Source: Arthrobacter sp. C2 (lineage in GTDB: Bacteria > Actinomycetota > Actinomycetes > Actinomycetales > Micrococcaceae). Taken from it: a DNA stretch of 64,000 nucleotides. Under the pieces are notes generated by a model. That model worked only from the letters and a program-made list of their open reading frames with translations, ran no database searches and was not told the DNA's origin. Below, one piece after another: positions 35,051 to 52,431 of the stretch. The position numbers and the translations under genes are program-made. The stretch is from contig CP042428.1 in assembly GCA_024207135.1 (NCBI GenBank), positions 2,232,001-2,296,000 of the forward strand. The letters run 5' to 3'. Position 1 is the stretch's first letter, and each line of letters opens with the position of its first letter.

Positions 35051-35064
35051 CAAACAGCCGCGGC

Positions 35065-35358: not shown

Positions 35359-35590
35359 GATGCACTCCTCGAACCGGCGGTCTCGCGGATTTCGAACCGC
35401 TCTAGGTACCACGGTAACCCCAAACCGTGCCCGGAAATTAGTGCTGTTTATGGGTCCTAATCGGGAGGGTCGCTACCCTCGGGTAAACGATTGCGGGGCG
35501 CGATTCCATGCGCGGAACATGCCCGAATCCCGATCGCGCACCCCGCCTACGGTGATGCACCTCACGCGCGGGACGTGCGTGCGGCTGTAG

Positions 35591-37057
<1,467 letters not shown>

Positions 37058-37064
37058 CCCAAGG

Positions 37065-37559
37065 CTACAGCCAGGGCACCGCTCCCTGGCTGTGCTCGAA
37101 GACCAGCGACGTCTGGGTGGTGGCCACCGCCGGGTTTGCCGACAGGTTGTCGAGCACGAACTGGCGCACGTCCTTCGAGTCGCGCACCGCCACGTGGATC
37201 AGGAAATCGTCGGCGCCGCCCAGGAAGAACAGCTGCGTGACCCCGGGCTTGGCGCGCATTTCTTCGGCAAAGGAGGACATCAGGTGGCGGGCGCCGGGGC
37301 GGATCTTCACGAAGATCAGCGCCTCGAGCGCGTGGCCGAGCACCTCGGGGTCGATTTCCAGGGTGAAGCGGCGGATGACGCCCGCCGAGCGCAAGGCGTT
37401 GAGCCGGGCCAGGCAGGTAGAGGGGGCGATGCCCAGTTCCTCGGCAAGCGAGTTGTTGGTGCGGCGCGCATTCTCCGTGAGCATGCGCAGCAGCCCGCGG
37501 TCGATGTCGTCCAGCTCCACGGGGTTGGACTGGCGAATATTCCTTTGAGTGATGGCCAT
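37065..37559 (-). CDS. Lrp/AsnC-family transcriptional regulator
   Basis: A regulator of about 164 residues. The HTH (about 15-62) reads ELDDIDRGLLRMLTENARR and SLAEELGIAPSTCLARLNAL. A RAM domain follows, with FFLGGADDFLIHVAV. It resembles actinobacterial Lrp/AldR-type amino acid sensors. The ATG at 37559 is the first close to the domain; a GTG seven codons upstream is possible, and neither has a strong ribosome site. Its stop lies eight bases from the convergent guaB1 stop. The target is not evident: the DedA gene upstream is on the same strand. Confidence 0.87.
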   Translation of the reverse strand: MAITQRNIRQSNPVELDDIDRGLLRMLTENARRTNNSLAEELGIAPSTCLARLNALRSAGVIRRFTLEIDPEVLGHALEALIFVKIRPGARHLMSSFAEEMRAKPGVTQLFFLGGADDFLIHVAVRDSKDVRQFVLDNLSANPAVATTQTSLVFEHSQGAVPWL

Positions 37560-37711
37560 GCCGGTACCCAGCTTTCGCACTAAAACATTGGTTCCCTGAA
37601 TCGTACCGACGAATATTTGCCAAAGCGCCCAACGCGCCGCAGGAAGAACACGACGGTGCGCCAGCTCCTTGACTGGACTTCATGGCCGGGCCGATTGCGG
37701 GAGCCTGCGCG

Positions 37712-38164
37712 TCAGGAGTTTTGCCGGCGGTAGCGGATCCACGCCAGGGTCGTAATCGCCAGCACCAAGGCTCCCGCCACGATCCACTGCCAGCCGAGGG
37801 CCAGCCATGCGTAGATCACGGCCATGCCCACGGTGGAATAGATGGTGGCCCAGATCAGGCAGCCGACGACGACCGCCGGGAGGTAGCGCAGCACCGGCAT
37901 CCGGGCGACACCCGCGCTGGCGTTGACCGCGGTCTGGATGCCCACGGTCATGAAGGACAGCGGGATCGCGAAGATGCCCCAGCGCTGGATGAAGCGTTCG
38001 GCCCGCTGGTAGATCGGCCCGGTGAGCACATGCTGGAACCGGGTGTGCTTCACCCCGGCGGCGATGCCGCGGCCCAGCCAGTAGGTGGTGTTTGCACGGG
38101 CCATGGAAAGCAAAAAGAGAAACGCAAAGGCCCATCCAAAAGGCGCGTCTCTTAACCAGTCCAT
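37712..38164 (-). CDS. DedA/VTT-domain membrane protein
   Basis: A 150-residue, four-span protein of the SNARE-associated (VTT/DedA) family. It has the N-terminal ARANTTYWLGRG segment and the re-entrant motif region with basic and glutamate residues (RAERFIQRWGIFAIPLSFMTVGIQT). DedA proteins are implicated in lipid scrambling and proton-coupled transport. The length is shorter than E. coli DedA (about 220), as often in actinobacteria. It stands alone. Confidence 0.8.
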   Translation of the reverse strand: MDWLRDAPFGWAFAFLFLLSMARANTTYWLGRGIAAGVKHTRFQHVLTGPIYQRAERFIQRWGIFAIPLSFMTVGIQTAVNASAGVARMPVLRYLPAVVVGCLIWATIYSTVGMAVIYAWLALGWQWIVAGALVLAITTLAWIRYRRQNS

Positions 38165-38243
38165 GAGCTCCAGCCTATCTGTGCCGGGTCATGGAGCCGG
38201 ACTTTCGTGAGCCGCCATACATCGAACGGCCAGTGCGTATTTC

Positions 38244-39530
38244 CTAGGGAACCGAGCGGATGTTGCGCACCAGCAAGGCACCGAAGATGCCGATGATGGC
38301 TGCCACGATGAACAGGGCCGTATAGCCACCGAGCACCTTCACCGAAACGAACGCCAGCGCGGGGGCAATGACCTGGGGCAGGGAGTTGGCCACGTTGATC
38401 ACGCCCATGTCCTTGCCCCGGGACTTGGCCGAGGGCAGCACCTGGGTCAGCAGCGCAAAGTCCACGGCCAGGTACGCGCCGAAACCGAGCCCCAGCACCG
38501 CGGCACCGATGATGGCGCCGGTGAAGTTCTGCGACACGGCAATGATCAGTGCGGAGCAGGCCACCACGATCGAGGAGACGATCACGAAGATCTTACGCTT
38601 CCCGCTCCTGTCGCTGATCGGCCCCAGGATCACTGCGCTGATGATCACCATGACCGCGTAGATGCCGGTCAGCACCAGCACCCCGCCGGCGGGATCCGGG
38701 TGCTTGACGACGTCGGTGAGGAAGAAGAGCAGGTAGACGATGGTCATTTGGTTGCCGGTGTTCATCATGAACCGGGTCAACCAGGCCCACCCGAAGTCGC
38801 GGTGGGTCAGCGGGTTGATCCAGAAGCCCTTGGCGAACTCCAGCAGGTTGAAGGCGGGGCGGAACTCGCGTGGCAGCTGCGGGTCGTTGGACCGCAGCAC
38901 GTAGGGGATCACGGAAACCAGCAGGGCCGCGGCGCAGATCATGTAGCCCACGGCGATGTTCCCGGTGATGGCGAAGCCCACCACCGCGCCCAGCAGGATG
39001 CCCACGGTCTGGCCCATGGCGGCCAGCCCGCCGATGCCCCCGCGCCGGCGCTCCGGAACGCGGTCCGGGATGGTGGCGGTGACGGCCGAATAGGCGGCGT
39101 TGGCGCCGGCCTGCAGCCCGCACCAGCCCAGCAGCATCAGCGCGACGGTGGTGGCCCCGGAGAGCATCAGCAGCGAGGCGGCGCCAAGGATGGCCCCGGC
39201 CAGGATCCACGGCGAGCGGCGTCCCATCTTGGAGACCGTGCGGTCCGAGAGCGCGCCGAAGAGCGGGTTGGCCACCAGTGCCACCGAGGCGCCGCAGGCG
39301 GTGACCAGCGAGAGGATCGCTTCCTTGGACCCGGCATCGATCGCCGTGGCCTGCAGCCCCAGCAACACATTGATGGGGGCGAAGAAGACGATGTTGATGC
39401 CGATGTTGATCGCCACGACCGAGGCCACCCAGCTGCGGGCGACGTCCTTGGTCGGCGTGCGCAGGGCCTCGGGGAGCCCCGCCTCGCCGCCGCCGGCAAG
39501 GGCCGTGGGATCGTTGGGTGTGCGCGCCAA
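38244..39530 (-). CDS. MFS transporter
   Basis: A 428-residue MFS protein with a 30-residue soluble N-terminus and twelve spans. Signature loops are NPLFGALSDRTVSKMGRRSPW near residue 87 and GPISDRSGKRKIF in the second half. The layout resembles the GPH/UMF-like group, but the substrate is unknown. The start is a TTG at 39530, directly abutting the TAG of a 32-residue ORF on the same strand, so translation of the two could be coupled. No regulatory gene adjoins. Confidence 0.87.
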   Translation of the reverse strand: MARTPNDPTALAGGGEAGLPEALRTPTKDVARSWVASVVAINIGINIVFFAPINVLLGLQATAIDAGSKEAILSLVTACGASVALVANPLFGALSDRTVSKMGRRSPWILAGAILGAASLLMLSGATTVALMLLGWCGLQAGANAAYSAVTATIPDRVPERRRGGIGGLAAMGQTVGILLGAVVGFAITGNIAVGYMICAAALLVSVIPYVLRSNDPQLPREFRPAFNLLEFAKGFWINPLTHRDFGWAWLTRFMMNTGNQMTIVYLLFFLTDVVKHPDPAGGVLVLTGIYAVMVIISAVILGPISDRSGKRKIFVIVSSIVVACSALIIAVSQNFTGAIIGAAVLGLGFGAYLAVDFALLTQVLPSAKSRGKDMGVINVANSLPQVIAPALAFVSVKVLGGYTALFIVAAIIGIFGALLVRNIRSVP

Positions 39531-39629
39531 CTAGATCATGCCCGAGAGCATGCCGGCTCCGGTCCCCACGAGCAGGGCCCCGATGAGCAGCCAGGTGATC
39601 ACTTTGACACGTTTGCGAATCGATTCCAT
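39531..39629 (-). CDS. 32-residue single-span membrane peptide upstream of the MFS gene
   Basis: An ATG-started frame of 32 codons encodes a basic head (MESIRKRVKV) and one hydrophobic helix (residues about 11-29, with AGxGxG spacing). Its TAG is immediately followed by the TTG start of the MFS transporter with no gap, the arrangement expected for a coupled leader or a small accessory subunit. No good ribosome site precedes its ATG, which lowers confidence. Alternatively it is only a translated leader, or non-coding. Confidence 0.4.
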   Translation of the reverse strand: MESIRKRVKVITWLLIGALLVGTGAGMLSGMI

Positions 39630-39733
39630 AGTGCGTTTATCGTAGGCGAGTTTTGCTCCGAACGCCCCTTTGACGACACCTGTCTTGCGCGTACCGCGCA
39701 TGCTTTCGGACCGGGGCAGATTACGCTACTGGC

Positions 39734-40567
39734 ATGAGCAAAAGCGGATCCGAGCAAATGTTGTGGGCACCGCGCCACAGCGGCTGGAATCTGGCCCACC
39801 ATTTGGTGCCGTCCTTTGTGTTGCTGGCCTTCCTGGCGGGCACCGGGGTGTACGCGCTGCTGCACGAGCGGCCGGTGCTTTCCACCGGGCTGCTGGCCAG
39901 CGCCCTGGCCGTGCTGATGGGCGTGGTGGCGGCCTATCGCCGCCCGACCGAGGACCAGGCGGCCGCGACCGCGGCGGTCGGAACCAGCACGGGACCGCGG
40001 GCAGCCACGTGCTTCCCGATGTTCCGGACCTCCCCGCAGTGGGCCGCCGCGGTGATGGGCCTGGCCGTGGTGATCCTGGTGGCCACCGTGGCGCTGAGCG
40101 CACGGCTGCTGATCATCCACAGCTACGACCCGATGGTACTGATCGTCCTGCTGACGGTCTTCCTGCTCGGGATCGGGGTCTATGTCTTGAACCGCGGGAT
40201 CCGCATGGCGCGCATTGCCGCCGCATCCCAGGATCCCGGGGTCTACCTCACCCGCAGCCGCATCGTGCTTTATTCCTCGCGCGGAACCCGGGAAATCTAC
40301 TGGAACGACCTCGAGGGCATCGAGCCAACCGATCCGGCCCGCCACCGGCCACTGGGCAGGCGCGGCCCTGCCTGGATCGTGGTGCGTCCCCGGGCCGGGG
40401 AGGCCGTCGGAGCCAAGTCCCTGGTGATCCTGGTCCACGAGCTCACCGCCAACCCGGACCAGCTGATGCGCACCCTGGAGCATTACTGGGTCAACCCGGC
40501 GGACCGGGCCGAGCTCGGGACGGCCGCGGCGCTGGAGCGCGTGCGGGGATTCACCTCGCAGTCCTAG
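39734..40567 (+). CDS. Membrane protein with PH-like domain, unknown function
   Basis: A 277-residue protein with four hydrophobic spans: two near 25-67 and two near 103-152. A cytoplasmic C-terminal domain of about 110 residues has beta-strands (GVYLTRSRIVLYSSRGTREIYW) suggestive of a bacterial PH domain. No catalytic residues are recognised. The stop codon overlaps that of the convergent Rieske gene by two bases. It is divergent from the 32-residue ORF and MFS gene. Confidence 0.75.
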   Translation: MSKSGSEQMLWAPRHSGWNLAHHLVPSFVLLAFLAGTGVYALLHERPVLSTGLLASALAVLMGVVAAYRRPTEDQAAATAAVGTSTGPRAATCFPMFRTSPQWAAAVMGLAVVILVATVALSARLLIIHSYDPMVLIVLLTVFLLGIGVYVLNRGIRMARIAAASQDPGVYLTRSRIVLYSSRGTREIYWNDLEGIEPTDPARHRPLGRRGPAWIVVRPRAGEAVGAKSLVILVHELTANPDQLMRTLEHYWVNPADRAELGTAAALERVRGFTSQS

Positions 40568-40929
40568 TTCCCGCCGGCGGCCGTTCCCGGATGCAGCAGC
40601 ACCCGCCCGGCAAGGACCTGGACCTTGTGGGTGCGGGCATCGCGGACGGCCGGCAGGCACAGCACCTTCCCGTCGCGCAGGCAAAAGCGCGAGGAATGCA
40701 AGGGGCATTCGACCTCGTCGTCCTCGATCCAGCCCTCGGACAGGGACGCGACCTCGTGCGGGCATTCATCATCCAGCGCGTAGTAAACCCCGGAGTCGGC
40801 GCGAAAGAGCCCTATGTCCTCCGGGTATCCGCTGGTTTCCGCGGGGACCAGCAGGGCCGTGCCCGGTTCGAGCAGGTCCTCGCCACCCAGGTCGACGGCC
40901 GGCAAACCGGGGCTTTTTTCGGTGTCCAT
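40564..40929 (-). CDS. Rieske-type [2Fe-2S] ferredoxin, biotin operon
   Basis: A 121-residue Rieske domain protein. Cluster ligands are Cys56/His58 (CPH) and Cys75/His78 (CPLH), the C-x-H...C-x2-H pattern. It is a soluble electron carrier like the ferredoxin component of multi-component oxygenases. It is the last gene of the bioB...reductase series, 114 bases after the FAD reductase, which would reduce it; the P450 two genes further up would be the acceptor (inference). The ATG at 40929 is chosen; a TTG at 41019 would extend the protein by a basic, poorly coding stretch. It is about half identical by eye to the Rieske protein at 48360-48698. Confidence 0.88.
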   Translation of the reverse strand: MDTEKSPGLPAVDLGGEDLLEPGTALLVPAETSGYPEDIGLFRADSGVYYALDDECPHEVASLSEGWIEDDEVECPLHSSRFCLRDGKVLCLPAVRDARTHKVQVLAGRVLLHPGTAAGGN

Positions 40930-41043
40930 GTGATTCGCGCACCTCTCCGTCGGGAGGGCAGCCCGGGAGAACCGGCCGCCACTGCCCCCAGTCTTGCCCT
41001 TCCGCGCACCGGCGGGCAAGGGGCACGAAGGAAGGGCCGGGAG

Positions 41044-42255
41044 TCAGCGGGCCAGTTTCTTCAGCGGGACTTCGGGGTCGGCAAGCGCTTCGGGCGGAAC
41101 AATGATGCCGCGGTCGATGATGCGCCGGGCCGCCCGGATCATCAGCCCGCCGTCGATCGCCGCGGCCCCGAGCATCCGCCCGTCCGCGGCAACGTTGAAG
41201 GCGGCCACCGGTTCCCCCTCTTTCAGGCGCAGGATGGTGGTGCCCTCGGCGTTCATGTCCCCCACACCCTCGACGTGGGTGCCGTGGCGGTCGGACCAGA
41301 ACCACGAGGCACCGTGCACCGGTGGTTCCTGGCCCAGGATCGCCGCGGCCGCGGTGGCCCCGGTGTTCATGGCGTGTTCCCAGTGCTCTCCGCGCCGTTG
41401 CAGCGTCCCGTCGGCGGACCGGGTGCGGGCCATGTCCCCCACCGCGTAGATCCCCGGGTGCGAAGTGCGCTGGTGCTCGTCGACCAGCACGCCGTTGTCG
41501 GTCGCCAGGCCTGCGCCCTGGGCGAGGGCGGTGTTGGGGATGATGCCGATGCCCACGAGCACCTCGTCGCATTCGAGGACCCGGCCGTCGGCCAGCTCGA
41601 TCCGGCGGCCCGCCCCGGTTCGCGTGATGCCCGCGGGCGTGCCGTGGACGACGGTGATGCCCGCACCGGAGTGCATGGCGTGCAGGCGTCGCGCCAGCTC
41701 TGGGCCCACGGCGGGCACCAGCGGGGTCTCGACGGGGTCGATCAGCGTGACCTCTGCCCCGAGGGCGAGGGCCGAGGAGGCGACCTCGGCGCCGATGAGT
41801 CCGGCCCCGACGATGGCCAGCCGGATGCCCGGGGCGAGCTTGCCGCGCAGCGTGTCTGCATCGGCGCGGCTGCGCAGCACCAGCACCGAGTCCAGGTCGC
41901 CGCCGGCCACCGGCAACGGACGGGCGGAGCCGCCGGTGGCCAGCACCAGGATGTCGGCGTGCAGTTTCCTGCCGTCCTGCAGTTCCACGCCCAGCGGTTC
42001 GATCGCCAGCGCGTGCACCGTGGCGCGGAGAAGTCCGACCCGGTGTTCGGAGAACCAGGAGGCCGGCGCCAGTTCGATGCCCGCGGCGTCCTTGTCCCCC
42101 AGCAGGTAGGCCTTGCTCAGCGGTGGGCGGTCGTAGGGAATCCCGGCGGGGTCGATGAGGTCGATGGTCCCGGTGAAGCCGCGCGTGCGCAGGTTCTGCG
42201 CGACGGTGAACCCGGCCAGGCCGCCGCCAACGATCAGGATGGATTCAATGCTCAT
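41044..42255 (-). CDS. FAD-dependent ferredoxin reductase, biotin operon
   Basis: A 403-residue flavoprotein of the BphA4/putidaredoxin-reductase class. It has an N-terminal FAD fold (ILIVGGGLAGFTVAQNLR), the IPYDRPPLSKAYL motif, a central NAD(P)H fold (LAIVGAGLIGAEVAS), ATGG in the FAD site and the second FAD motif IYAVGDMAR. A small C-terminal reductase domain follows. Such enzymes pass electrons from NAD(P)H to a [2Fe-2S] ferredoxin, here the Rieske protein next downstream. The ATG at 42255 overlaps the end of the 33-residue His-rich ORF; an ATG at 42288 is an alternative. Operon context points to a P450 electron chain. Confidence 0.9.
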   Translation of the reverse strand: MSIESILIVGGGLAGFTVAQNLRTRGFTGTIDLIDPAGIPYDRPPLSKAYLLGDKDAAGIELAPASWFSEHRVGLLRATVHALAIEPLGVELQDGRKLHADILVLATGGSARPLPVAGGDLDSVLVLRSRADADTLRGKLAPGIRLAIVGAGLIGAEVASSALALGAEVTLIDPVETPLVPAVGPELARRLHAMHSGAGITVVHGTPAGITRTGAGRRIELADGRVLECDEVLVGIGIIPNTALAQGAGLATDNGVLVDEHQRTSHPGIYAVGDMARTRSADGTLQRRGEHWEHAMNTGATAAAAILGQEPPVHGASWFWSDRHGTHVEGVGDMNAEGTTILRLKEGEPVAAFNVAADGRMLGAAAIDGGLMIRAARRIIDRGIIVPPEALADPEVPLKKLAR

Positions 42256-42346
42256 GGTTGTGTGGTGCCGATCCGTGGATGTGGTCATGGACGTTCAGTG
42301 CTGCGTGCTGGCACGAGTTTGTGCCCGACTGCTGCCCTCCCATCAT
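42245..42346 (-). CDS. 33-residue His-rich mini-protein between bioD and the reductase
   Basis: A frame of 33 codons that starts MMGGQQSG, has one Cys (SCQH) and seven His in its last 20 residues, and ends HNHEH. Its ATG overlaps the bioD stop by ATGA, exactly as bioA, P450 and bioD overlap the genes before them, and its own stop overlaps the reductase start by 11 bases. Thus it removes the only sizeable gap in the core operon. The composition suggests binding of Fe, Zn, Ni or Cu. No family is known to me. It may instead be untranslated spacer, since no ribosome site is seen beyond coupling. Confidence 0.5.
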   Translation of the reverse strand: MMGGQQSGTNSCQHAALNVHDHIHGSAPHNHEH

Positions 42347-43128
42347 CCCGCGCGGGCGGGCTCCGCCACAAAGCGGGGACGGCCGTCCGTGGTGTCCGGG
42401 GCAACGTGCAACGGCGCTTCGACGAGCACCGAGGCCAGTTTCCGGCCCGCCGCGTGCAGGATCAGCTGACTGTGCGCCGGGTTGGCCACGGCTCCGGCTG
42501 GTGGGCCGTCGGCCCAGGCCCAGCCGTGGCGCCCGGCCAGCGCGCGCAAATTCGACCGGTTCCGCTGCTGCAGTGCGGTGGGGTCGGCCGGGAAGCTTCC
42601 CGGCACCAGCACCCCGCGGGCAAAGCCGCGCGCCGCGGCGGCTTCCAGGGTCAGCGCCGTGTGGTTCAACGTCCCCAGGTCCGGGCGGGTGGCCACCACC
42701 AACCGGGCACCCAGCCCGCGGCCAATATCCGCGATGGTTTCCCCCGCCAGGGTCAAGGGCACCAGCAGGCCGCCGGCGCCCTCGATGAGCAGCACATCGT
42801 GCCACTTGGCCAGCGCCCGGGCGCGACGCAGATGGTCGGCCAGGGTGGGCAGCGCCGCGGCGGCTGCCGGGCCCCCTGCGTGCAGCGCGGCATCCACCGG
42901 GGCCATCGGATCTTTCAGCCGCACTCCCTCGGACAGGGTGAGCTCCGGCGGGTTCCCCAGCCAGGACCCGATCGCGTGCACATCCCCGCCCTGCCCCGGT
43001 TCCACGCCGGTTTGGGCGGGCTTGTAGATGGCCCCCGAATGCCCCGCATCCAGGGCTCCGGCGGCCAGGGCCGCGGTGAGGACGGTCTTGCCGACGTCGG
43101 TGTCGGTCCCGGTGACGGCGACGATCAT
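42343..43128 (-). CDS. bioD: Dethiobiotin synthetase
   Basis: A 261-residue ATP-dependent carboxylase that converts 7,8-diaminopelargonate, CO2 and ATP to dethiobiotin. The P-loop is GTDTDVGKT (residues 7-15). The substrate-site region YKPAQTG and the EGAGGLLVPL motif are intact. The ATG overlaps the P450 stop by four bases (ATGA). Slightly longer than E. coli BioD, with a C-terminal extension of about 30 residues. Confidence 0.95.
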   Translation of the reverse strand: MIVAVTGTDTDVGKTVLTAALAAGALDAGHSGAIYKPAQTGVEPGQGGDVHAIGSWLGNPPELTLSEGVRLKDPMAPVDAALHAGGPAAAAALPTLADHLRRARALAKWHDVLLIEGAGGLLVPLTLAGETIADIGRGLGARLVVATRPDLGTLNHTALTLEAAAARGFARGVLVPGSFPADPTALQQRNRSNLRALAGRHGWAWADGPPAGAVANPAHSQLILHAAGRKLASVLVEAPLHVAPDTTDGRPRFVAEPARAG

Positions 43129-44297
43129 GCCGCCACCCCCGCACCCGGCCACGAGCTGAACACGGTACGCGGCCACTGGAAGGAGAGCAGGTGCATCCAG
43201 TCCGGTTCCCCGCCGGCCGGGTTGAGCCCCGGCAGCGCGCGGGCCGCGGTGTGCAGCACCACCTCGGTTTCCATCCGTGCCAGCCCCGCGCCGAGGCAGC
43301 GGTGGATCCCGAACCCGAAGGCCAGGGAATCATCGTCCCCGTCCTCCATCAGGGCACCGCCCGAGAGCCGGAGCACCAGCTGCTCCCCGGCGGCAAAGCG
43401 CACACCATCCAGCTCGATGTCGGCCCGCACCACCCGGCGCCAGGTCGGCACCGAGGACGCGCGCGCCAGCGACCGGGCCACCAGCTGTGCGGCCGCGGAT
43501 TCCTGCGCGCAGGAATCCCAGCGGCCCCCGTGCAGCGCGGCGGCCAGCGTCGTGGAGATGAGCATCGCGGTGGTCTCCTGTCCGGCAATGGTCAGGAAGT
43601 AGCCCAGTGAGCGGATCCGGTCCAGGTCCACCCCGCCTTGGTGCAGCGCCGCATAGAGGTTTCCGTCGTCGCGGGCCACGGCCTGCGCGACCGAGGTGCG
43701 CAGCCACGCGTGGAATCCGGCGGCGCTGGCGGCAAGTTCCCGCTGCCGGGCGGCGTCGGGCCAGCCCCAGAAGAGCTCCAGGGAATCGAGGCTCCAGGCC
43801 TTGAGGTCGGCGGCGGGCGGGACCGGGATCCCGGTGAGCCGGGCCATGACCTCGGGCGGGATGACCGCGGCCAGGTGCGCGGCCAGGTCGACGCGGGCGC
43901 CGTTGCGGTAGTCGGCGGCCAGTGCGGCGCAGATCCCGGCCACGCGTGCCCGGATGGGCTCCGCCTGGGCGGCGACCCTGGCGGGGCTGAAGAAGCGTGC
44001 CACGATGCGGCGGACCGCCAGGTGCGCTGCCCCGCCGGCGCTGGCCAGCACCGGGGGCAGGAAGAAGCGTTCGGCGGCCAGGACGCGCAGGGCCGCGGGT
44101 TCGAGGTCGATGGCGGTGTCCAGGGCGTTGGCCGGGGTGAAATCCTCGGGGCGCTGCAGGATCCGGCGCACCAGGGCGGGGTCCTCGATGCTGCGGTAGC
44201 GGTTGTTGACCGCCTCGGGGTAGGTGCCGGGCAGGGCCGTGGCCAGCGGCGCGGACGTTGGGGCAACGGCCGTGGACCCGGCAAAGGGACAGCTCAT
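43125..44297 (-). CDS. Divergent cytochrome P450 of the biotin operon (BioI-like role)
   Basis: A 390-residue soluble P450. The haem-thiolate Cys334 lies in FGFGIHRCLGAGLAR. The I-helix oxygen-binding motif AGQETT is at 238-243, and the C-helix HLAVRRIVARFFSP is canonical. Two normally conserved parts are unusual: the K-helix ExxR motif is not seen (the matching stretch around 272-283 reads VARSLARASSV), and the meander before the haem loop is shortened. It overlaps bioF and bioD by ATGA on both sides. B. subtilis BioI cleaves fatty acyl-ACP to pimeloyl-ACP, and a similar job here would explain the missing pimelate genes. That role is inference. Confidence 0.85.
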   Translation of the reverse strand: MSCPFAGSTAVAPTSAPLATALPGTYPEAVNNRYRSIEDPALVRRILQRPEDFTPANALDTAIDLEPAALRVLAAERFFLPPVLASAGGAAHLAVRRIVARFFSPARVAAQAEPIRARVAGICAALAADYRNGARVDLAAHLAAVIPPEVMARLTGIPVPPAADLKAWSLDSLELFWGWPDAARQRELAASAAGFHAWLRTSVAQAVARDDGNLYAALHQGGVDLDRIRSLGYFLTIAGQETTAMLISTTLAAALHGGRWDSCAQESAAAQLVARSLARASSVPTWRRVVRADIELDGVRFAAGEQLVLRLSGGALMEDGDDDSLAFGFGIHRCLGAGLARMETEVVLHTAARALPGLNPAGGEPDWMHLLSFQWPRTVFSSWPGAGVAA

Positions 44298-45508
44298 GAT
44301 TCTTCCTCCAGGATGGTGGCGGCAATGGTGTGCAGCGCGGCGAGCAGCTCGCGCCGGTGGTGGTTGGCGTGGGCGGTGATCCGCAGCCGGGACACCCCGT
44401 CGGGCACGGACGGGGGCCGGAAGCAGGCCACGGCGATGCCGCGGGCGCGCAGGGCCGCGGCGGTGCGCACCGCGGTGGCGGCGTTGGCCATGGTGATCGA
44501 GTGCACCGCGCCGGCGCCCCGCTCGATGCGCCCGGAAAGATGCGGCACCGCGGACAGTGTGTCGTGCACAAGGGCGGCGTTGCGTTCCAGCCGTCCCAGC
44601 AGTTGCGCGTCGGCCAGTTCCAAGGCGGCCAGTGCGGCGCCGGCCGCGGCCGGGGCCAGCGCGGTGTCAAAGAGGAAGCTGCGGGCGGTGTTCACCAGGT
44701 GCTCGCGCAGCAACCCCGCCGTTTCCCCGCCCAGCAGCACCACCCCGCCCTGGGAGCCCAGGGCCTTGGAGAGCGTGGCGGTGGCGATGACGTGCCCGGA
44801 ACCTGCCAGCCCGGCGGCACGCAGCGCCGAGCCGTTGCGCGTGGCGGCCAGCGAGTGGGCCTCGTCGACGAGAAGCAGCGCGCCGAACTCGGCGCACAGC
44901 GCATCCGCGGCGGCCAGGTCGGCGGCATCCCCCAGCACCGAATAGAGGGATTCGAGCACCAGCGCCACGCGCGGGGCCGGTGCCGGCGAGTCGCGGTTCG
45001 CCTCGAGCAGCGCCCTGGCGGCGTCGAGGTCGTTGTGCGCGGCTGTGGCCACCCTGGCCCCGGAGAGGCGGGCGCCGTCGATCAGGCTGGCGTGGGCATG
45101 GGCGTCGAGGATGAAGTGGCTGCCCGGTCCGCCCAGGGCCTGCAGGACACCGATGTTGGCGGTGTAGCCGCTGGAAAAGACCAGCGCGGTGTTCCTGCCG
45201 GTGTAGGCGCACAGCGCCTCCTCGAGCGCGCTGTGCACCGCCACGGTGCCGGTGGCCACGCGGCTGGCGGCGGCACCGGCTCCGTGGCGGGCCGCGGCCT
45301 CCCCGGAGGCGGCACGCACCGCCGGGTGCGTACCCAGGCCCAGGTAGTCGTTGGAGGCCAGGTCCACCAGGTGCCCGCGATCGCTCTCCACCCGGTGCAG
45401 CCCGCGGGCCGCGCGCACCCGTGCCCGCCCGCCCAGCCACGTTCCCCACGCCTCCGGAACGGCCGCGGGCGCATCGGCGGCCGGGGCAAGGCTAGGGGCC
45501 GTGGACAT
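44294..45508 (-). CDS. bioF: 8-amino-7-oxononanoate synthase
   Basis: A 404-residue PLP enzyme of the alpha-oxoamine synthase family that condenses pimeloyl-thioester with L-alanine. The PLP lysine is in TLSKALGSQGG near residue 240. The glycine-rich SNDYLGLG, the aromatic/histidine stacking site HASLIDG and the DEAHS aspartate are present. Its start overlaps the bioA end by 17 bases and its stop overlaps the P450 start by four. Its need for a pimeloyl donor links it to the P450 next door. Confidence 0.93.
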   Translation of the reverse strand: MSTAPSLAPAADAPAAVPEAWGTWLGGRARVRAARGLHRVESDRGHLVDLASNDYLGLGTHPAVRAASGEAAARHGAGAAASRVATGTVAVHSALEEALCAYTGRNTALVFSSGYTANIGVLQALGGPGSHFILDAHAHASLIDGARLSGARVATAAHNDLDAARALLEANRDSPAPAPRVALVLESLYSVLGDAADLAAADALCAEFGALLLVDEAHSLAATRNGSALRAAGLAGSGHVIATATLSKALGSQGGVVLLGGETAGLLREHLVNTARSFLFDTALAPAAAGAALAALELADAQLLGRLERNAALVHDTLSAVPHLSGRIERGAGAVHSITMANAATAVRTAAALRARGIAVACFRPPSVPDGVSRLRITAHANHHRRELLAALHTIAATILEEES

Positions 45509-46868
45509 GGTCCACCGCCGCGACAAGGGCGGCGCCCAGCAGCCGGATCTCCTCCGCGCCGCTGGTGTAGGGCGGCATCACGTAGACCAAATCGCGGAAG
45601 GGGCGCACCCATGCCCCGTGGCGCACCGCGGCCGCGGTCACCTCCGCCACGCGCACCTGCTCGTGCAGCTGGATGACGCCGACCCCGCCCAGCACCCGCA
45701 CGTCCTTCACGCAGGGCAACACGGCGGCCGGGGCGAGGGCCTCGCGCAGCCCGGCATACAGTGCGGAAACCTGGCCGCTCCAGGGTGCGTCGGCGGCGCG
45801 CGGGTTGCCTCCGCCGGTGAGCAGTTCGAGGGAGGCATTGGCCACCGCGCAGGCCAGCGGGTTGCCCATGAACGTGGGCCCGTGCAGCAGCGCCGAGCCG
45901 TTGCCGTGCGCCCCGTCCAGGGCGCCGGCGACCTTCGGGGTGCAGAGCATCGCGGCCAGGCTCAGGTAGCCGCCGGTCAGCGCCTTGCCCACGCACATCA
46001 CGTCCGGCACCACGCCCGCCCATTCACTGGCGAACAGCTTCCCGGTGCGCCCGAAGCCGGTGGCGATCTCATCGAGCACCAGCAGCAGGTCGTGTGCGTC
46101 GGCGATCTCGCGCAGCACGCGCAGCGCCGCCGGGGCGTAGGCGTACATGCCCCCGGCGCCCTGCAGGACGGGCTCGGCAATGATCCCGGCCAGTTCCGGG
46201 GCATGGGCCGCGGCCAGCGCGCGGGATTCGGTTTCCCAGGCGGCAAATTCGACCACGTCGAATTCCCAGCTGCCCTCCTCGGTCAGCCGGGCGGCCGGCG
46301 GCCGGGGCAGGAAGAGCTGTTCGGCCCCGGGCCGGGAGAAGGCGGCGTGCATGCCGTCCACCGGGTCGCAGACACCCATCGCCGCGAAGGTGTCCCCGTG
46401 GTAGCCGCCGCGCAGCGCCGCAAAGCGCTGCTTTCCGCTGTGCCCGCGGGCGTGCTGGTATTGCAGCACGACCTTGAGCGAGACCTCCACGGAGATCGAG
46501 CCGGAATCGGCCAGGAACACGTGGGCCAGCTCGCCCGGGGCCATGGCCACGAGCCGCTCGGCCAGTTCCACGGCCGGGGCGTGGGTCAGCCCGCCGAACA
46601 TCACGTGGCTGAACGAGTCGATCTGCGCATGGGCAGCGGCATCCAGCACCGGGTTGCGGTAGCCGTGCACCATCGACCACCAGGAGCCCATGCCGTCGAT
46701 GACCTCATGGCTGCCGCTGGCGTCCTCGAGGGTGAGCCGCACGCCGCTGGCACCGGTGACCGCGTAGCGGGCGCCTGCATCGAGGGAAGCGTAGGGGTGC
46801 CAGAGCAGTCCTGCGTCCCGTGCCAGCAGGTCCTGTCCCTGGCTCACCAAGGACGTTGCGGCGCTCAT
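45492..46868 (-). CDS. bioA: Adenosylmethionine-8-amino-7-oxononanoate aminotransferase
   Basis: A 458-residue class III PLP aminotransferase converting KAPA to DAPA with S-adenosylmethionine as amino donor. Typical motifs are LLWHPYAS near residue 22, [13 protein letters not shown] (the BioA-specific WW/Y region), the [11 protein letters not shown] aspartate and the PLP lysine in [10 protein letters not shown]. The ATG overlaps the bioB stop by ATGA. Length and motif set match actinobacterial BioA. Confidence 0.95.
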
Positions 46869-48100
46869 GCGTTGGGGCTTTCGCCGGTTCCTGCACCGCG
46901 GCGGCGCAGCACCGGTTCGGCGCCTTGGGCCGGGCCGCAACCCAGGGAAGCGCCCGCACCGCAGCCGGAACCGCAGGCACTGCCGCAGCCGGCGGGTTCG
47001 CTCGCTGCGGCAGGGGCTTCGTCGGCCCGGTGGCGCAGGCGTGCGGCAAGCTCCGCCGGGTCGGTGTCCTCCTGGCCCAGGATCACGAACCCGGCATCAG
47101 AGATCATTTCCAGGTCGCGGCGCGCATCCTGGCCCTCGGACGTGAGGTAGTCGCCGAGGAACAAGGAGTTTGCCACGGCCAGCGCGGTGGCCTGCAGGGT
47201 GCGCAGGTGCATTTCGCGGCCGCCGGCCATGCGCAGCTCGGCGGCCGGGGCGGCGAGACGGACCAGGGAGAGGATCCGCAGGCAGGCCATCGGCGTCAGG
47301 TGCCAGGTCCCGGCAAGCGGGGTGCCGTCAAAGGGCATCAGGAAGTTCACCGGGATGGAGTCGGCCTCCAGCTCGCGCAGCGCGAAGACGGCCTCGACGA
47401 GCTGCTCGGGGGTCTCGCCCATGCCCACAATGAGCCCCGAGCACGGGGAGAGCCCGGCGTCCTTGGCCGCCCCGACGGTGTCCACGCGCTCGGCGAAGGT
47501 GTGGGTCGAGCAGATCTCCGGGTAGAGGGACTCTGCGGTGTTCAGGTTGTGGTTGTAGGCATCGGCCCCGGAGGCGGCAAGCCGTTGGGCCTGCCCGGCC
47601 TTGAGGATGCCCAGGCAGGCGCAGACCTCCACCTGCGGGTGCTCGTCCTTGATCTGGCCGATCATGGTGGCCACGCGGTCCACGTCGCGGTCGCTGGGGC
47701 CCTTGCCGGAGGCGACCATGCACACGCGCGAGGCTCCGCCGGCGATGCCGAGCCCGGCCTGATGCACCGCTTCCTCGGGCTTGAGCCAGGTGTACTTGAG
47801 GATCTCGGCCTTGGAGCCCAGACGCTGGGAGCAGTAGGTGCAGTCCTCGGGGCAGAGCCCCGATTTGAGGTTGACCAGGTAGTTGACCTTCACGGTGTTG
47901 CCGAAGTGCCTGCGGCGCAGGGTTCCGGCCGCGGCAACCAGCCCGAGCGTGTCCTGGTCCTGGGTCTGCAGGACGGCGAGGGCTTCGTCGGCGGTGAGCC
48001 GGTGGCCGGCGTCGATGCGGGCGGCCAGGTCTGCTGCGTCCAGGATCCCGGCGGTGGTGGCAGGTACAGCGGGGGCGGGGATGGTATCGGTCGTGGTCAT
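46865..48100 (-). CDS. bioB: Biotin synthase with a cysteine-rich C-terminal tail
   Basis: A 411-residue radical SAM enzyme that inserts sulfur into dethiobiotin. The SAM [4Fe-4S] ligands are Cys83, Cys87 and Cys90 (CPEDCTYC). Residues of the auxiliary [2Fe-2S] cluster are present ([22 protein letters not shown]; a conserved Arg in LRMAGGRE). Beyond the usual end near residue 355 there is a tail with Cys372, Cys376, Cys380 and Cys388 (C-x3-C-x3-C-x7-C), which could hold another metal or sulfur site. The ATG at 48100 is chosen; the longer frame would run through the operator region. First gene of the biotin operon. Confidence 0.95.
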
Positions 48101-48176: not shown

Positions 48177-48233
48177 TTGAACACCGTTCAATCATTCCCG
48201 GATCACACTACACGCCAATTGAACACCGTTCAA
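48177..48233. promoter_or_regulatory. Two BioQ-type operators upstream of bioB
   Basis: TTGAACACCGTTCAA occurs at 48177-48191 and again at 48219-48233, identical 15-base palindromes with centres 42 bases apart (four helical turns) and a shared CAAT CAT flank. They match the TGAAC-N3-GTTCA-like box known for the actinobacterial TetR-type biotin repressor BioQ. They lie 77-133 bases before bioB. No bioQ gene is in the window. Confidence 0.85.
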
Positions 48234-48359: not shown

Positions 48360-48698
48360 CTACACGGCCGGGGTGTCGGGGTAAAGCAGCAGCTCCCCGT
48401 CCTGGACCTCGATCTTGTGCGTGCGGGCAGCCACGGTAGCCGGCAGGCAGAGTGCGGTGCCGGACTTCAGGCAGAACTTCGCCGCGTGGACCGGGCATTC
48501 CACCTCGGTGCCCTCGATCCAACCGTCGGCCAACGAAGCGGTCTCGTGGGTGCACTCGTCGTTGATGGCATAGAAGTTCCCGTCCTCGGCGTGGAACACC
48601 GCGATGTCGTCCTTCGTGCCGTTGTCTTCGGACGGAATCACGATGGCTTCGCCTTCATCGATGCTGTCGACGGAACCGATGTTTATTGCCTCGCTCAT
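48360..48698 (-). CDS. Rieske-type [2Fe-2S] ferredoxin, paralogue
   Basis: A 112-residue Rieske protein with ligands Cys49/His51 (CTH) and Cys68/His71 (CPVH). Much of the sequence from NDECTHETASLADGWIEG to the C-terminus parallels the Rieske ferredoxin at 40564-40929. AGGAGG before the ATG at 48698 is a near-ideal ribosome site. It lies upstream of the biotin operon on the same strand but behind its own terminator. Its partner is unknown; it may serve another oxygenase or share the biotin-operon reductase. Confidence 0.9.
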   Translation of the reverse strand: MSEAINIGSVDSIDEGEAIVIPSEDNGTKDDIAVFHAEDGNFYAINDECTHETASLADGWIEGTEVECPVHAAKFCLKSGTALCLPATVAARTHKIEVQDGELLLYPDTPAV

Positions 48699-48870
48699 GA
48701 GGGTGCCTCCTGGTGTGCCCCGTCGCCTCCGCGCCTTGCGCGAAAGCGATGGATATAGGAAAAGATGTTGCTCCATCATCCCGCCTTTCGGCCCACGGCC
48801 CAACCGCCAAGGCTCAGTGAGTCCGCCGGGAAGATCCTGCACCCAAATTTCCCAAATACGTTTATATCTT

Positions 48871-48898
48871 CGGATAACACCGCATAAGGTACGGATAA
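48871..48898. repeat. Direct repeat CGGATAA, period 21
   Basis: CGGATAA occurs at 48871-48877 and 48892-48898 in an unusually AT-rich patch about 170-200 bases upstream of the second Rieske gene. A spacing of two helical turns suggests a regulator site. The 528-base gap (48699-49226) otherwise contains AT-rich promoter-like sequence for both divergent genes and the hairpin at 49126-49159. Confidence 0.35.
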
Positions 48899-49125
48899 TG
48901 TTTTTCAATCATCACGAACGGCGGCCGAAGAACGGCAGCCATCCGCAACGATAACCGATGTGAAATCAATTTCCGGCCACCGCCAGTATCACGATGTCGT
49001 AACACCGTTCCTGCCCCGTGATTACGCGGGCCAATCGATATCCACATGGTCACAAATCATGAAAAAACCCTCTTATCCCTCCTCCTTTCCCGCGACGGCT
49101 GTTAGCGTGAAGGCCTAAGTCTCAT

Positions 49126-49159
49126 CCGTTGCGAGAGGCTCACCAGCCGAGCGCAACGG
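49126..49159 (+). repeat. Leader hairpin before the betaine/proline transporter
   Basis: CCGTTGCG (49126-49133) pairs perfectly with CGCAACGG (49152-49159), and GGCT/AGCC (49137-49140, 49145-49148) forms an inner stem with a four-base loop. It would lie in the 5' leader of the transporter mRNA. It matches no riboswitch consensus I know. Confidence 0.4.
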
Positions 49160-49226
49160 CCACGTGAACAAGAATGCACAAATCGTGTTGCCGGTTCTTC
49201 TGCGCGACACGTGGATGGAACCTCGC

Positions 49227-50543
49227 ATGAACTCAGCACCAGGGACGGCTTCACCGGCCCTACGTGTCGCCAATGCCTACAAGGTGTTCGGACGTAGACC
49301 CCAAGAAGCGGTGAAGGCCCTCAAGGACGGCAAAACCCGCAAGGATGTGGCCGCGATGGGCACCGCGGCCGTCATTGACGCCTCGTTTGATGTCAAGCCG
49401 GGTGAAATCTTCGTCGTCATGGGACTGTCCGGCTCGGGCAAGTCGACGTTGATCCGGATGCTCAACGGCCTATGGCCCATGACCAGCGGCTCGGTCCACA
49501 TCGGCGACATAGACATTTCCAAGATCTCCGGCAAGCGCCTGCGTGAGGTTCGGCAAAAGAGCATATCGATGGTGTTCCAGCACTTCGCCTTGCTCCCGCA
49601 CCGCACCGTGCTGGAAAATGCCGCCTACGCCCTCGAGATCCAAGGCGTAGACAAGAAGAAGCGCACCGAACTGGCCACCGCGATGCTCGATACGGTGGGG
49701 CTCACCGGCTGGGGAGACAAGTACCCCGGACAGCTCTCCGGCGGCATGAAGCAGCGCGTCGGCTTGGCCCGGGCTTTGTGCTCGGAAACCGACATCCTGC
49801 TGATGGACGAGGCGTTCTCCGCACTCGACCCGCTGATCCGCCGCGACATGCAGGAACAACTCGCTTCCCTGCAGGCGGACCTGGGCAAGACCATCATCTT
49901 CATCACTCACGACCTGAACGAGGCTATGTTCCTCGGGGACCGCATCGCGGTGATGCGCGACGGGGAAATCGTGCAGATCGGCACCCCCGACGAGATCCTC
50001 ACCTCCCCCGCCAACGACTACGTGGCATCCTTCGTCCGCGACGTGGACCGCACCCGCGTGCTCACGGCCGGCGCTGTCATGGAGAATCCGCGCGCAGTCG
50101 TTTCGATCAGCGGCGGAGCACGCGCTGCCCTGTTGACCATGCGTGGGCAGCTGACCTCCGGCGCGTTTGTCATCGACCGCAACCGCAACTTCCGCGGCAT
50201 CGTCACCGACCGTGAGACCCAGGCCCTTGCCGACCGCGGCGGATCGGACCTCACCGAGATCCTGACCCGGACCGAGGACGCAATTTCCGCCGACACCGCG
50301 CTCAACGACCTCTTTGGCCGCGCAGTGGAAAGCAACACCCCCCTACCGGTCGTCGATGAGCAGGGACGGCTGGTCGGTGCCGTGGCCCGGGCAACGTTGT
50401 TGGCGGCCTTGGGCAACGTGCCGTCCACCACCAGCTCCATGGAGATCCTCGAGCCGGGCCAAACCGCCGGAAGCGACGACGGCAGCCAGAAACCAGGTAT
50501 TTTCACCCAGGAGCCATCCGGTGAAGAGGGAGGCACTCTCTAA
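49227..50543 (+). CDS. Glycine betaine/proline ABC transporter ATPase with CBS domains
   Basis: About 438 residues, of the ProV/OpuAA class. It has Walker A GLSGSGKST, the signature LSGGMKQRVGLARAL, Walker B ILLMDEAFSALDP, and the ProV-specific N-terminal insert after YKVFG. A CBS pair follows from about residue 265, where ionic-strength or c-di-AMP sensing is known in the family. The ATG at 49227 gives the family's usual N-terminus; a GTG at 49164 and an ATG at 49215 are alternatives. The stop overlaps the permease start (TAATG). Role: osmoprotectant uptake. Confidence 0.92.
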   Translation: MNSAPGTASPALRVANAYKVFGRRPQEAVKALKDGKTRKDVAAMGTAAVIDASFDVKPGEIFVVMGLSGSGKSTLIRMLNGLWPMTSGSVHIGDIDISKISGKRLREVRQKSISMVFQHFALLPHRTVLENAAYALEIQGVDKKKRTELATAMLDTVGLTGWGDKYPGQLSGGMKQRVGLARALCSETDILLMDEAFSALDPLIRRDMQEQLASLQADLGKTIIFITHDLNEAMFLGDRIAVMRDGEIVQIGTPDEILTSPANDYVASFVRDVDRTRVLTAGAVMENPRAVVSISGGARAALLTMRGQLTSGAFVIDRNRNFRGIVTDRETQALADRGGSDLTEILTRTEDAISADTALNDLFGRAVESNTPLPVVDEQGRLVGAVARATLLAALGNVPSTTSSMEILEPGQTAGSDDGSQKPGIFTQEPSGEEGGTL

Positions 50544-51388
50544 TGGACGACTTGTTCCGGATTCCCGTCGGCAAATGGGCGGAAACAGCCCTCGACTGGA
50601 TCATCGCCAACCTCGGCGCTTTTTTCGACGGCGTCAAGGCCTTCTTCGCCGAGTTCTACAACGGACTGGACTGGGTCCTGTCCACCCCTCCCTTCTGGGC
50701 CATCATCGTCGTTCTCGCGGCTCTGGCCTTCTGGCTCAAGGGCTGGAAACTGTCCTTGGGCACCATCATCGGGTTCCTGCTGATCTACGGCATGAACCAA
50801 TGGGACAACGCCATGGATTCGCTGGCCCTGGTACTCGTGGCCTCCCTGGTGGCAGTGATCATCTCCGTGCCTTTGGGAATAGCCGCAGCCAAGTCCACGG
50901 CCGTCTCCAGCGTCGTCAAGCCTGTCATGGACTTCCTTCAGACCATGCCGGCCTTCGTCTACCTGATTCCGGTGCTTTTGTTGCTGGGCATCGGACCGGT
51001 TCCCGGCATCGTGGCGACCATCGTGTTTGCCCTGGCGCCAGGCGCCCGTTTCACGGAACTGGGCATCCGCTCCGTGGACAGTGAAGTGGTCGAGGCCGGC
51101 CAGGCCTTTGGCGCTTCGCCCATGCGCATCCTGCGCCAGATCCAGATCCCGCTGGCGATGCCCACCATCATGGCGGGCATCAACCAGATCATCATGCTCT
51201 CCCTGTCGATGGTCGTCATTGCCGGCATGGTGGGTGCCGGCGGCCTCGGTGGCGCGGTCTACTCGGCCCTGACCGGGTTGAACACGCCGCTCGGTGTGGA
51301 ATCCGGCCTCGCCGTTGTCATCCTGGCGATCTTCCTCGATCGCATCACCGCTTCGCTGACCCACGTCAAGAAGCACGTCCCAGCGTAA
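50543..51388 (+). CDS. Glycine betaine/proline ABC transporter permease
   Basis: A 281-residue ProW/OpuAB-type permease. A long amphipathic N-terminal segment (about 1-45, WAETALDWIIANLG) is followed by six spans. The EAA loop reads EVVEAGQAFGASPMRILRQIQIPLAMPTIMAGINQ. It sits between the ATPase (TAATG overlap) and the binding protein in one operon. A single permease gene implies a homodimer in the importer. Confidence 0.93.
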   Translation: MDDLFRIPVGKWAETALDWIIANLGAFFDGVKAFFAEFYNGLDWVLSTPPFWAIIVVLAALAFWLKGWKLSLGTIIGFLLIYGMNQWDNAMDSLALVLVASLVAVIISVPLGIAAAKSTAVSSVVKPVMDFLQTMPAFVYLIPVLLLLGIGPVPGIVATIVFALAPGARFTELGIRSVDSEVVEAGQAFGASPMRILRQIQIPLAMPTIMAGINQIIMLSLSMVVIAGMVGAGGLGGAVYSALTGLNTPLGVESGLAVVILAIFLDRITASLTHVKKHVPA

Positions 51389-51446
51389 CCAGTTCCCCAT
51401 TTTGCGGCTCCCGCGAAGTTGGGGACCATCAAGAAAGGCAAATTTC

Positions 51447-52352
51447 ATGAAGAAGAAACTCGTATCATTCATGGCCCTGGCTGCCGCCTCGGCACTGGCC
51501 CTGACCGCCTGCGGATCCGGCGACGCCGGATCGGAAGCCTCTGGCTCACCGGGCGGAGACAAGAAGGAACTGACAATTGGCGTGTTCGCCGGCTGGGACG
51601 AAGGCATTGCCGTGTCCAACCTGTGGAAGAGCATCCTCGACAAGGAAGGCTACGATGTCACATTGACCACCGCCGATGCGGCACCGGTCTTCACGGGCAT
51701 CACCACCGGCGACTTCGACATGACCATGGATGTCTGGCTTCCGGACACCCACAAAACGTACCTGGAAAAGTACGGCGACAAGATGCAGGAACTGGGCACC
51801 TGGAACGAAAACGCCAAGCTGACAGTGGCCGTGAACAAGGACGCCGACATCACGTCCCTGGACGAGCTCGCCAGCAAGGCCGACATGTTCGACAACCGAA
51901 TCGTGGGCATCGACCCGGGTGCGGGGTTGACCGCCGCCATGAAGGACCGTGTCATCCCGGAATACGGCCTGGACAAGATGGAATTCGTGACATCCTCGAC
52001 CACGGCAATGCTGACCCAGCTGAAGAAGGCAACCACCGACGGGGACAACATCGCGGTGACGCTGTGGCGTCCGCACTGGGCCTATGACGCGTTCCCGATC
52101 AAGGACCTCGAAGACCCCAAGGGCGCCTTGGGTGCAGCCGAGCACATCAGCACCTACGGCAGCCTGACCTTCAAGGACGACTTCCCCACCGTTGCGGGCT
52201 GGATGAAGGACTTCAAGATGGATGACGAGAAGCTCTTCTCCCTGGAAAACGCCATGTTCAACCAGGACGAAACCCAGGACTACGGTCCGATCGTCGAGAA
52301 GTGGATCGGCGAAAACCAGGAATGGGTCGATTCGCTGACCGCGAAGAAGTAG
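51447..52352 (+). CDS. Glycine betaine/proline-type substrate-binding lipoprotein
   Basis: A 301-residue OpuAC/ProX-type binding protein with a lipobox LTAC at Cys22. After the signal peptide, ELTIGVFAGWDEGIAVSNLWK begins lobe 1. Aromatic residues that commonly form the cation-pi box for quaternary amines are present (GWDE, the MDVWLPDTH segment, TLWRPHWAYD). GAAAGG before the ATG supports the start. The terminator at 52373-52431 ends the operon. Ligand: a betaine, proline or choline derivative. Confidence 0.92.
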   Translation: MKKKLVSFMALAAASALALTACGSGDAGSEASGSPGGDKKELTIGVFAGWDEGIAVSNLWKSILDKEGYDVTLTTADAAPVFTGITTGDFDMTMDVWLPDTHKTYLEKYGDKMQELGTWNENAKLTVAVNKDADITSLDELASKADMFDNRIVGIDPGAGLTAAMKDRVIPEYGLDKMEFVTSSTTAMLTQLKKATTDGDNIAVTLWRPHWAYDAFPIKDLEDPKGALGAAEHISTYGSLTFKDDFPTVAGWMKDFKMDDEKLFSLENAMFNQDETQDYGPIVEKWIGENQEWVDSLTAKK

Positions 52353-52372
52353 CCGCGCAGCACCTGCTCCAG

Positions 52373-52431
52373 GGGCCCGGGCCGTCCGGGACACCGCCCA
52401 ACACCGCGGTGTCCTTGGAAGGCCCGGGCCC
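52373..52431 (+). terminator. Compound terminator hairpin after the betaine operon
   Basis: GGGCCCGGGCC (52373-52383) pairs with GGCCCGGGCCC (52421-52431), and a GGACACCGC/GCGGTGTCC stem lies within. It begins 20 bases after the binding-protein stop codon. Confidence 0.8.

Follow-up and report, generated by a model that had tools for sequence, protein, structure and literature searches.

BioI (CYP107H1), a cytochrome P450 of Bacillus subtilis, is described in a 2025 paper as unique to that species, and the same text presents BioE as a diiron, ferritin-like non-heme oxygenase that converts long acyl-acyl carrier protein (ACP) to a pimeloyl product in an oxygen-dependent manner (PMC12915131). 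The Streptomyces P450 MkpG is described as BioI-homologous and as paired with a BioF-like enzyme; its predicted reaction is the cleavage of an acyl chain, which would yield a product of the pimelate type (PMC13336041). In mycobacteria, BioQ is reported to control bioFD and bioB, and Tam is reported as the BioC of Mycobacterium smegmatis, where its gene is not linked to the remaining bio genes and has no BioQ site (PMC9302846). The literature passages available to us did not state the origin of the pimelate half of biotin in actinomycetes outside the mycobacteria, and searches on biotin with P450 and on the ExxR motif found, within such passages and the titles listed, no paper that describes a P450 encoded in the bio operons of Micrococcales. 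Here, we describe such a P450 in a window of 64,000 nucleotides (G000:C1:2232001-2296000, the whole stretch analysed) from the 4.56-Mb single-contig genome of Arthrobacter sp. C2 (G000; G and L numbers denote genomes and loci). Open reading frames (ORFs) and matches to Pfam and NCBIfam models placed bioB, bioA, bioF, the P450 gene, bioD, a flavin adenine dinucleotide (FAD)-dependent reductase gene, and a Rieske ferredoxin gene in this order on the minus strand (Table 1), which bore out the gene run reported by a first-pass annotation of this DNA. The role of this P450 as a conserved biotin-synthesis enzyme is well supported by our analysis.

Conservation of the P450 was assessed in two partly overlapping sets of loci. 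The first was drawn from 120 Micrococcaceae genomes including that of the window, with BioF called at E ≤ 1e-50 and P450 orthologs at an identity of at least 45%; the second comprised 80 loci of named genomes kept from 134 P450 relatives, the other 54 of which were not viewed. The gene-order survey of Micrococcaceae that the first-pass annotation had proposed showed that the P450 adjoins bio genes at all 35 ortholog loci, with bioD only in G105. Bio genes likewise accompanied the P450 at 80/80 named loci, arranged as bioF-P450-bioD in 47 and bioF-bioD-P450 in 31; the remaining two loci are on short contigs that hold a single bio gene. The genera represented among the relatives include Paeniglutamicibacter, Glutamicibacter, Arthrobacter, Citricoccus, Nesterenkonia, Kocuria, Micrococcus, Zhihengliuella, Rothia, Knoellia, Ornithinimicrobium, Salinibacterium, and Cryobacterium, the closest named one being that of Paeniglutamicibacter psychrophenolicus (95% identity). 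Among the matches listed, 41 Micrococcaceae genomes encoded BioF, 35 the P450 ortholog, and 34 both, so that the P450 occurred in 34/41 BioF-positive versus 1/79 BioF-negative genomes (Fisher p = 8e-22, uncorrected for relatedness). The sole P450-positive, BioF-negative genome was G105, whose contig starts 104 bp before the P450 gene. Matches in G034, G096, and G113 consisted of two pieces each and were counted once as P450-positive, and one stop was found inside the aligned P450 stretch in three of the 30 rows with loci (G007, G052, and G006), where ORF lengths suggest a position at the C-terminal end. Presence and absence of the P450 together with BioF occurred repeatedly inside single genera (e.g., g15, g18, g7, g3, g4, and g21); joint loss or gain alone is no proof of joint function, because the genes share one operon. 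Pairwise distances of the P450 correlated with those of BioF (r = 0.943, 77 loci), as did those of BioF with BioA (0.931).

At the class level, a P450 profile search with a threshold of E ≤ 1e-50 was positive in 14 of 296 genomes; two further P450s encoded in the window's own genome pass it as well. Stretches were inspected for 12 of the 14 positive genomes; the P450 gene was next to bio genes or close to them in L223, L224, L227, L228, L229, and L232, and not in L225, L226, L230, L231, L233, and L234. Distant homologs adjoined bio genes or lay within about 5 kb of them in five further class-level genomes (L223, L224, and L227-L229). At the paralogous P450 loci L082-L084, no bio genes were present. 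A class-level BioF search (185/296 genomes at E ≤ 1e-70, none over the cut-off) was dropped as unspecific; it scored G039, negative in the earlier search, as positive and gave two matches in G000.

Two perfect TGAAC-N3-GTTCA palindromes, which we take to be BioQ-type boxes, lie 5' of bioB. Allowing at most one mismatch, the window holds three such palindromes versus 0.88 expected, a number reached in five of 100 shuffles, and the genome-wide counts are 14 and 18 per strand versus 9 and 8 for a reversed control. The exact TTGAAC-N3-GTTCA form occurs at four genomic sites, two of them 5' of bioB and one each 5' of two genes that read as bioY-like. With operator counts resting on exact matches only, a box was found near the first bio gene at 43 of the 47 loci of bioF-P450-bioD order, and genes that read as TetR-like adjoin bioB in several relatives. 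The P450 is probably a BioQ-regulated member of the biotin operon. At loci of bioF-bioD-P450 order (31/80; Arthrobacter-type, e.g., L139, L152, and L190), BioB was of another type in those inspected, about 35% identical, and regulation and BioB type look switched together.

The operator also marks a second operon (L195, G000:C1:770500-786500, approximately 3841-8009 on the minus strand), which encodes a bioY-like transporter, an AMP-binding ligase, a thiolase, an ABC ATPase, and a membrane protein. It resembles the yhfU-yhfT-yhfS genes of B. subtilis plus bioMN. Its exact operator box and its Pfam AMP-binding and thiolase domains are in line with a supply of pimeloyl-CoA by the acyl-CoA ligase and thiolase of this bioY2-ligase-thiolase-bioM-bioN operon (G000:C1, about 774-779 kb; bioY, bioM, and bioN named by reading). 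However, only 8/19 ligase-positive genomes were BioF-positive (p = 0.44, no association), and the placement of the ligase beside transport-type genes suggests salvage. We rejected this ligase as the pimelate source on its distribution and consider that origin hardly probable.

Next, we examined the motifs and predicted fold of the P450. The heme Cys and the Phe of the FGxGxHxCxG signature were invariant in 80/80 members, as were the I-helix Glu-Thr and the C-helix His/Arg. In the window protein, R and A occupy the two ExxR positions of the K helix, and the 80 relatives kept neither residue in 71 cases, both in three, Glu only in five, and Arg only in one. Absence of ExxR from the whole clade was accordingly ruled out. 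The meander is shortened or replaced compared with ordinary P450s; two other P450s of the same genome (L083 and L084) keep ExxR and have a longer meander, with a W-to-Cys spacing of 61 versus 48. A P450 fold was predicted confidently for the window protein. Fold and heme signature settle its membership in the superfamily, because ExxR is not absolute there: the CYP157 family of Streptomyces, with no complete ExxR, is yet said to be functional (PMC3990721). Relatives that keep ExxR were located inside the clade with a short meander (L136, L142, and L156) and outside it with a full meander (L224, L227, L228, and L229), and provide a ready series for studying motif loss.

These losses could also indicate that the P450 has degenerated, no longer catalyses a reaction, and is kept for another role in the operon as a heme or scaffold protein. 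Besides the missing ExxR residues and altered meander, the Pfam score barely over the cut-off and the presence of TIGR04515, a model for P450-derived glycosyltransferase activators, among the weak NCBIfam matches are in line with such a protein. The residues invariant in all 80 members, the three members with a full ExxR, the confident fold, and the CYP157 precedent argue against it, and we regard a non-catalytic protein as very unlikely.

Regarding the source of the pimeloyl group, the BioC model TIGR02072 gave 11 matches in the genome, none in the window and none over the cut-off (best 67.3 versus 184.95), and exceeded the cut-off in 0/120 Micrococcaceae genomes, with a positive Escherichia coli control and no mycobacterial control. 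BioW (PF03744) was found in 0/120 genomes, including that of the window, with a positive B. subtilis control. The first-pass annotation had listed bioC, bioH, bioW, bioX, and bioZ as missing from the window; this held for the BioC model, and BioW was absent genome-wide, with bioH, bioX, and bioZ not searched for. Since the P450 is conserved, probably BioQ-regulated, and encoded in genomes with no BioW and no BioC-model match over the cut-off, the pimeloyl step is the leading reading of its role. It is also the best fit because no other step of the pathway is known to need such an oxidant, and because BioI and MkpG offer precedents.

Taken together, we consider it fairly probable that the P450 is a dedicated biotin enzyme of Micrococcales that forms a pimeloyl thioester and that the flanking reductase and Rieske ferredoxins belong to a separate dioxygenase-type set. 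We infer its reaction, substrate, and electron source as follows. In Micrococcales, its gene shares an operon, preceded by BioQ-type operator boxes, with bioB-A-F-D, and the P450 would oxidise an acyl thioester so as to give the pimeloyl (C7 dicarboxylate) thioester, which BioF would then use. The oxidation could be an in-chain C-C cleavage as in BioI, or it could start from a C7 acyl chain and proceed in steps at the terminal methyl; CreJ, the nearest solved relative, oxidises alkyl side chains. Electrons may come from general ferredoxins and reductases, and older, ExxR-bearing forms of the P450 may serve biotin synthesis in some other Actinomycetes. More tentatively, and with somewhat less than even confidence, we suggest that in this clade the meander was shortened first and ExxR was lost later in most members while the gene was in the biotin operon, and that the P450 is the main, required pimeloyl-thioester synthase of Micrococcales, unlike BioI and perhaps acting by terminal-methyl oxidation of a C7 chain.

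Several points weigh against a P450 origin of the pimeloyl group. The operator box was found in 0/31 loci of bioF-bioD-P450 order, and the P450-BioF co-occurrence is partly a product of the shared operon. Among the 14 class-level P450-positive genomes, eight had the P450 in or near bio genes and six did not. The ExxR loss in 71/80 members and the loss of the ordinary meander raise the question of catalytic competence, and bioI of B. subtilis is reported to be dispensable. Among the matches listed, moreover, seven of the 41 BioF-positive genomes carried no P450 (G016, G061, G073, G083, G097, G103, and G114). These seven also gave no BioC-model or BioW matches, and the called genes at their bio loci showed no P450; a second source of the pimeloyl group therefore probably exists in the family. 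Finally, the best BioC-like match in the genome was an ortholog of the trans-aconitate methyltransferase Tam (NF010703, 350 bits, cut-off 320; G000:C1:417182), which, by its sequence, could act as BioC together with some alpha/beta hydrolase.

This ortholog opens an alternative in which pimeloyl-ACP arises by a Tam/BioC plus BioH-like route and the P450 carries out another oxidation, for example one that tailors a biotin vitamer or serves its salvage. The mycobacterial report of an unlinked Tam acting as BioC without a BioQ site and the BioF-positive genomes without the P450 are in accord with this route. It accounts less readily for the presence of the P450 in 34 of the 41 BioF-positive genomes among the matches listed, and we know of no later biotin step that requires a P450; we judge this division of labour unlikely but plausible. 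The genome-wide check for bioC and bioW proposed in the first-pass annotation thus had a mixed outcome, with no match over the BioC cut-off and no BioW but a Tam ortholog that weakens the statement that bioC is missing. Its claim that the P450 supplies the pimeloyl precursor is likewise favoured by conserved operon membership and by both of these negatives, and tempered by Tam.

The first-pass annotation had further joined the P450 to the neighbouring FAD reductase and Rieske ferredoxin in one complete electron chain dedicated to pimelate synthesis. Their position on one strand, with tight spacing in three close species, and the fact that the reductase and ferredoxin families work together speak for such a chain. 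However, the reductase and Rieske genes directly follow the bio operon in no more than three species, that of the window and two closely related ones (3/35 Micrococcaceae and 2/80 named loci). Reductase orthologs (at least 50% identity) were found in 35/120 genomes, 21 of them without the P450, and thus in 14/35 P450-positive versus 21/85 P450-negative genomes (Fisher p = 0.12), which is no clear association. Among the genes called around the P450 at eight of the 80 loci, no conserved ferredoxin or reductase was recognised, a weak negative, since the simple gene caller errs on strand in places.

A second Rieske ferredoxin gene (48698-48361), which lies 5' of bioB and was missing from the list of the first-pass annotation, is the key to this neighbourhood. 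Fourteen reductase loci were chosen, mostly and non-randomly, from the best rows (60 genomes) of the reductase search, and in 10 of them a ferredoxin of the upstream type was located within about 100 bp of the reductase gene (not in L258, L259, L261, and L266). In L260, the ferredoxin-reductase pair is part of a dioxygenase cluster with ring-hydroxylating alpha and beta subunits (PF00848 and PF00866), a short-chain dehydrogenase, and a ligase. Moreover, positions 33001-42243 and 48361-53282 of the window align to one stretch of the congener G094 (L267), in which the ferredoxin and reductase genes are neighbours 112 bp apart; this stretch lacks the 6.1-kb bioB-A-F-P450-D block and the downstream Rieske gene, and the bio operon of G094, a draft genome, is on another contig. 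In the congeners G074 and G022, an upstream-type ferredoxin gene is followed by the bio block, and the nearest reductase gene lies about 14 kb past bioD; this arrangement, with the bio block again between ferredoxin and reductase, agrees with a P450 electron chain, but the adjacent pair without bio genes in G094 and within the dioxygenase cluster of L260 does not.

On distribution and on synteny with G094, we rejected the reductase and Rieske ferredoxin as dedicated P450 partners; they are probably not its electron chain, and a single chain for pimelate synthesis made of the three proteins is highly improbable. Because ferredoxin and reductase genes often stand side by side in this family, the simpler course of events is that the bio block entered beside the ferredoxin gene and split the pair; we infer filling of the site, not its emptying. 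The bio block would accordingly have been placed between members of a dioxygenase-type FAD reductase/Rieske set in this lineage. Co-option of the set by the P450 in these species is possible. The genome gives 13 matches to the Rieske domain, and several of these fall in long open frames, so that other clients for the ferredoxin-reductase pair are possible. The best models for the flanking Rieske ferredoxins and reductase were those of the HcaC/HcaD dioxygenase electron chain, with the upstream Rieske ferredoxin alone over the cut-off; dioxygenase alpha and beta subunits, present beside the pair in L260, were not recognised at 38.9-49.2 kb of the window, the stretch examined. L265 (G022:C5:236000-255500) contains two reductase-Rieske pairs about 10 kb apart, which indicates that the pair duplicates and moves within the genus; a gene like that of the downstream Rieske ferredoxin is paired there with a reductase gene at a distance from the bio operon.

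Table 1. Features of the biotin locus and its flanks, with positions in the window
Feature	Position	Strand	Evidence and remarks
bioB, biotin synthase with Cys-rich C-terminal tail	46865..48100	-	TIGR00433, 378.6 bits (cut-off 225); heads the operon
bioA, DAPA aminotransferase	45492..46868	-	TIGR00508, 477.6 bits (cut-off 405); ATGA overlap with bioB
bioF, AON synthase	44294..45508	-	Best model TIGR00858, 291 bits, under the cut-off of 426
Cytochrome P450, R and A at the two ExxR positions	43125..44297	-	Pfam p450 PF00067, 26.1 bits (cut-off 22.8), heme region only
bioD, dethiobiotin synthase	42343..43128	-	TIGR00347, 106.5 bits (cut-off 83.3); ATGA overlap with the P450 gene
33-codon ORF	42245..42346	-	Without a family match
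FAD ferredoxin reductase (HcaD/AndAa-like)	41044..42288	-	Best model NF042949, 296 bits, under the cut-off of 450
Downstream Rieske ferredoxin, paralog of the upstream one	40564..40929	-	Pfam Rieske, 56.4 bits; PRK09965, 93.4 bits, under the cut-off of 113
Upstream Rieske ferredoxin (HcaC-like)	48361..48698	-	PRK09965, 114.8 bits (cut-off 113)
BioQ-type palindrome, copy 1, TGAACACCGTTCA, 5' of bioB	48178..48190	.	Exact match
BioQ-type palindrome, copy 2, 5' of bioB	48220..48232	.	Exact match

Most junctions of the run had been described as ATGA overlaps, and four of seven were (bioB/bioA, bioF/P450, P450/bioD, and bioD/33-codon ORF). BioA and bioF overlap by 17 bp if the first ATG of bioF is taken as the start, the 33-codon ORF and the reductase gene also overlap otherwise, and the reductase and Rieske genes are separated by 114 bp. 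The 33-codon ORF, counted as part of the run in the first-pass annotation, is probably not a gene, because it had no match in Pfam or NCBIfam and, across the 35 Micrococcaceae and 80 named loci, aligned outside its own genome only in L048 and L116, which represent one strain. A scan for promoters and terminators gave no matches above chance. The C-terminus of BioB (46865-47000) is a tail rich in glycine and cysteine that recalls an auxiliary iron-sulfur site. Small Cys-rich ORFs adjoin bioB or the P450 gene in L224 and L228 and resemble BsaP. On the plus strand, positions 39734-40567 hold a 277-residue ORF with no Pfam match, a counterpart of which adjoins the reductase gene in the congeners L265 and L266.

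The occurrence of this P450 in the biotin clusters of many Micrococcales genera provides one named gene and protein with which to address the origin of pimelate. The clade would also constitute a natural test of P450 activity after loss of the ExxR Glu and Arg and of the ordinary meander, for which members that keep ExxR (Micrococcus and Kocuria) and fuller relatives near bio genes elsewhere in the actinomycetes (L224 and L227-L229) serve as comparison material. If the proposed role is true, the pimelate route would depend on a heme enzyme unlike BioI that is conserved and needed, not redundant.

Like BioI, the window P450 is encoded with bio genes, a trait shared by the clade at 80/80 loci; unlike BioI, it lacks ExxR and is widely conserved with the operon. 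It is 19-20% identical to BioI (PDB IDs: 3ejb, 3ejd, and 3eje), so it is no ortholog, and this identity lies below the >40% given for members of the same CYP family (PMC3599690). Of the solved structures, those nearest to it in sequence profile and in fold, with at most 26% identity, were CreJ (PDB IDs: 5gwe and 5xjn) and the heme domains of CYP116B (PDB IDs: 6ro8, 6laa, and 6kbh); CreJ is reported to act on alkylphenols by aliphatic oxidation, using a ferredoxin and a reductase (PMC9549646). CYP157 resembles the clade as a P450 family without a full ExxR, but the motifs quoted for it keep the Glu (EVLW and EQSLW), whereas Glu is found in 8/80, Arg in 4/80, and both in 3/80 members of the clade. 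MkpG, as described, is also an actinomycete P450 paired with a BioF-like enzyme, but belongs to a secondary-metabolite cluster, that of alpha-methyl-KAPA, which encodes an ACP and a ketosynthase of its own. BioE, from its published description, would share an oxygen-dependent route to the pimeloyl group with the window P450, and differs in being a non-heme enzyme rather than a heme P450.

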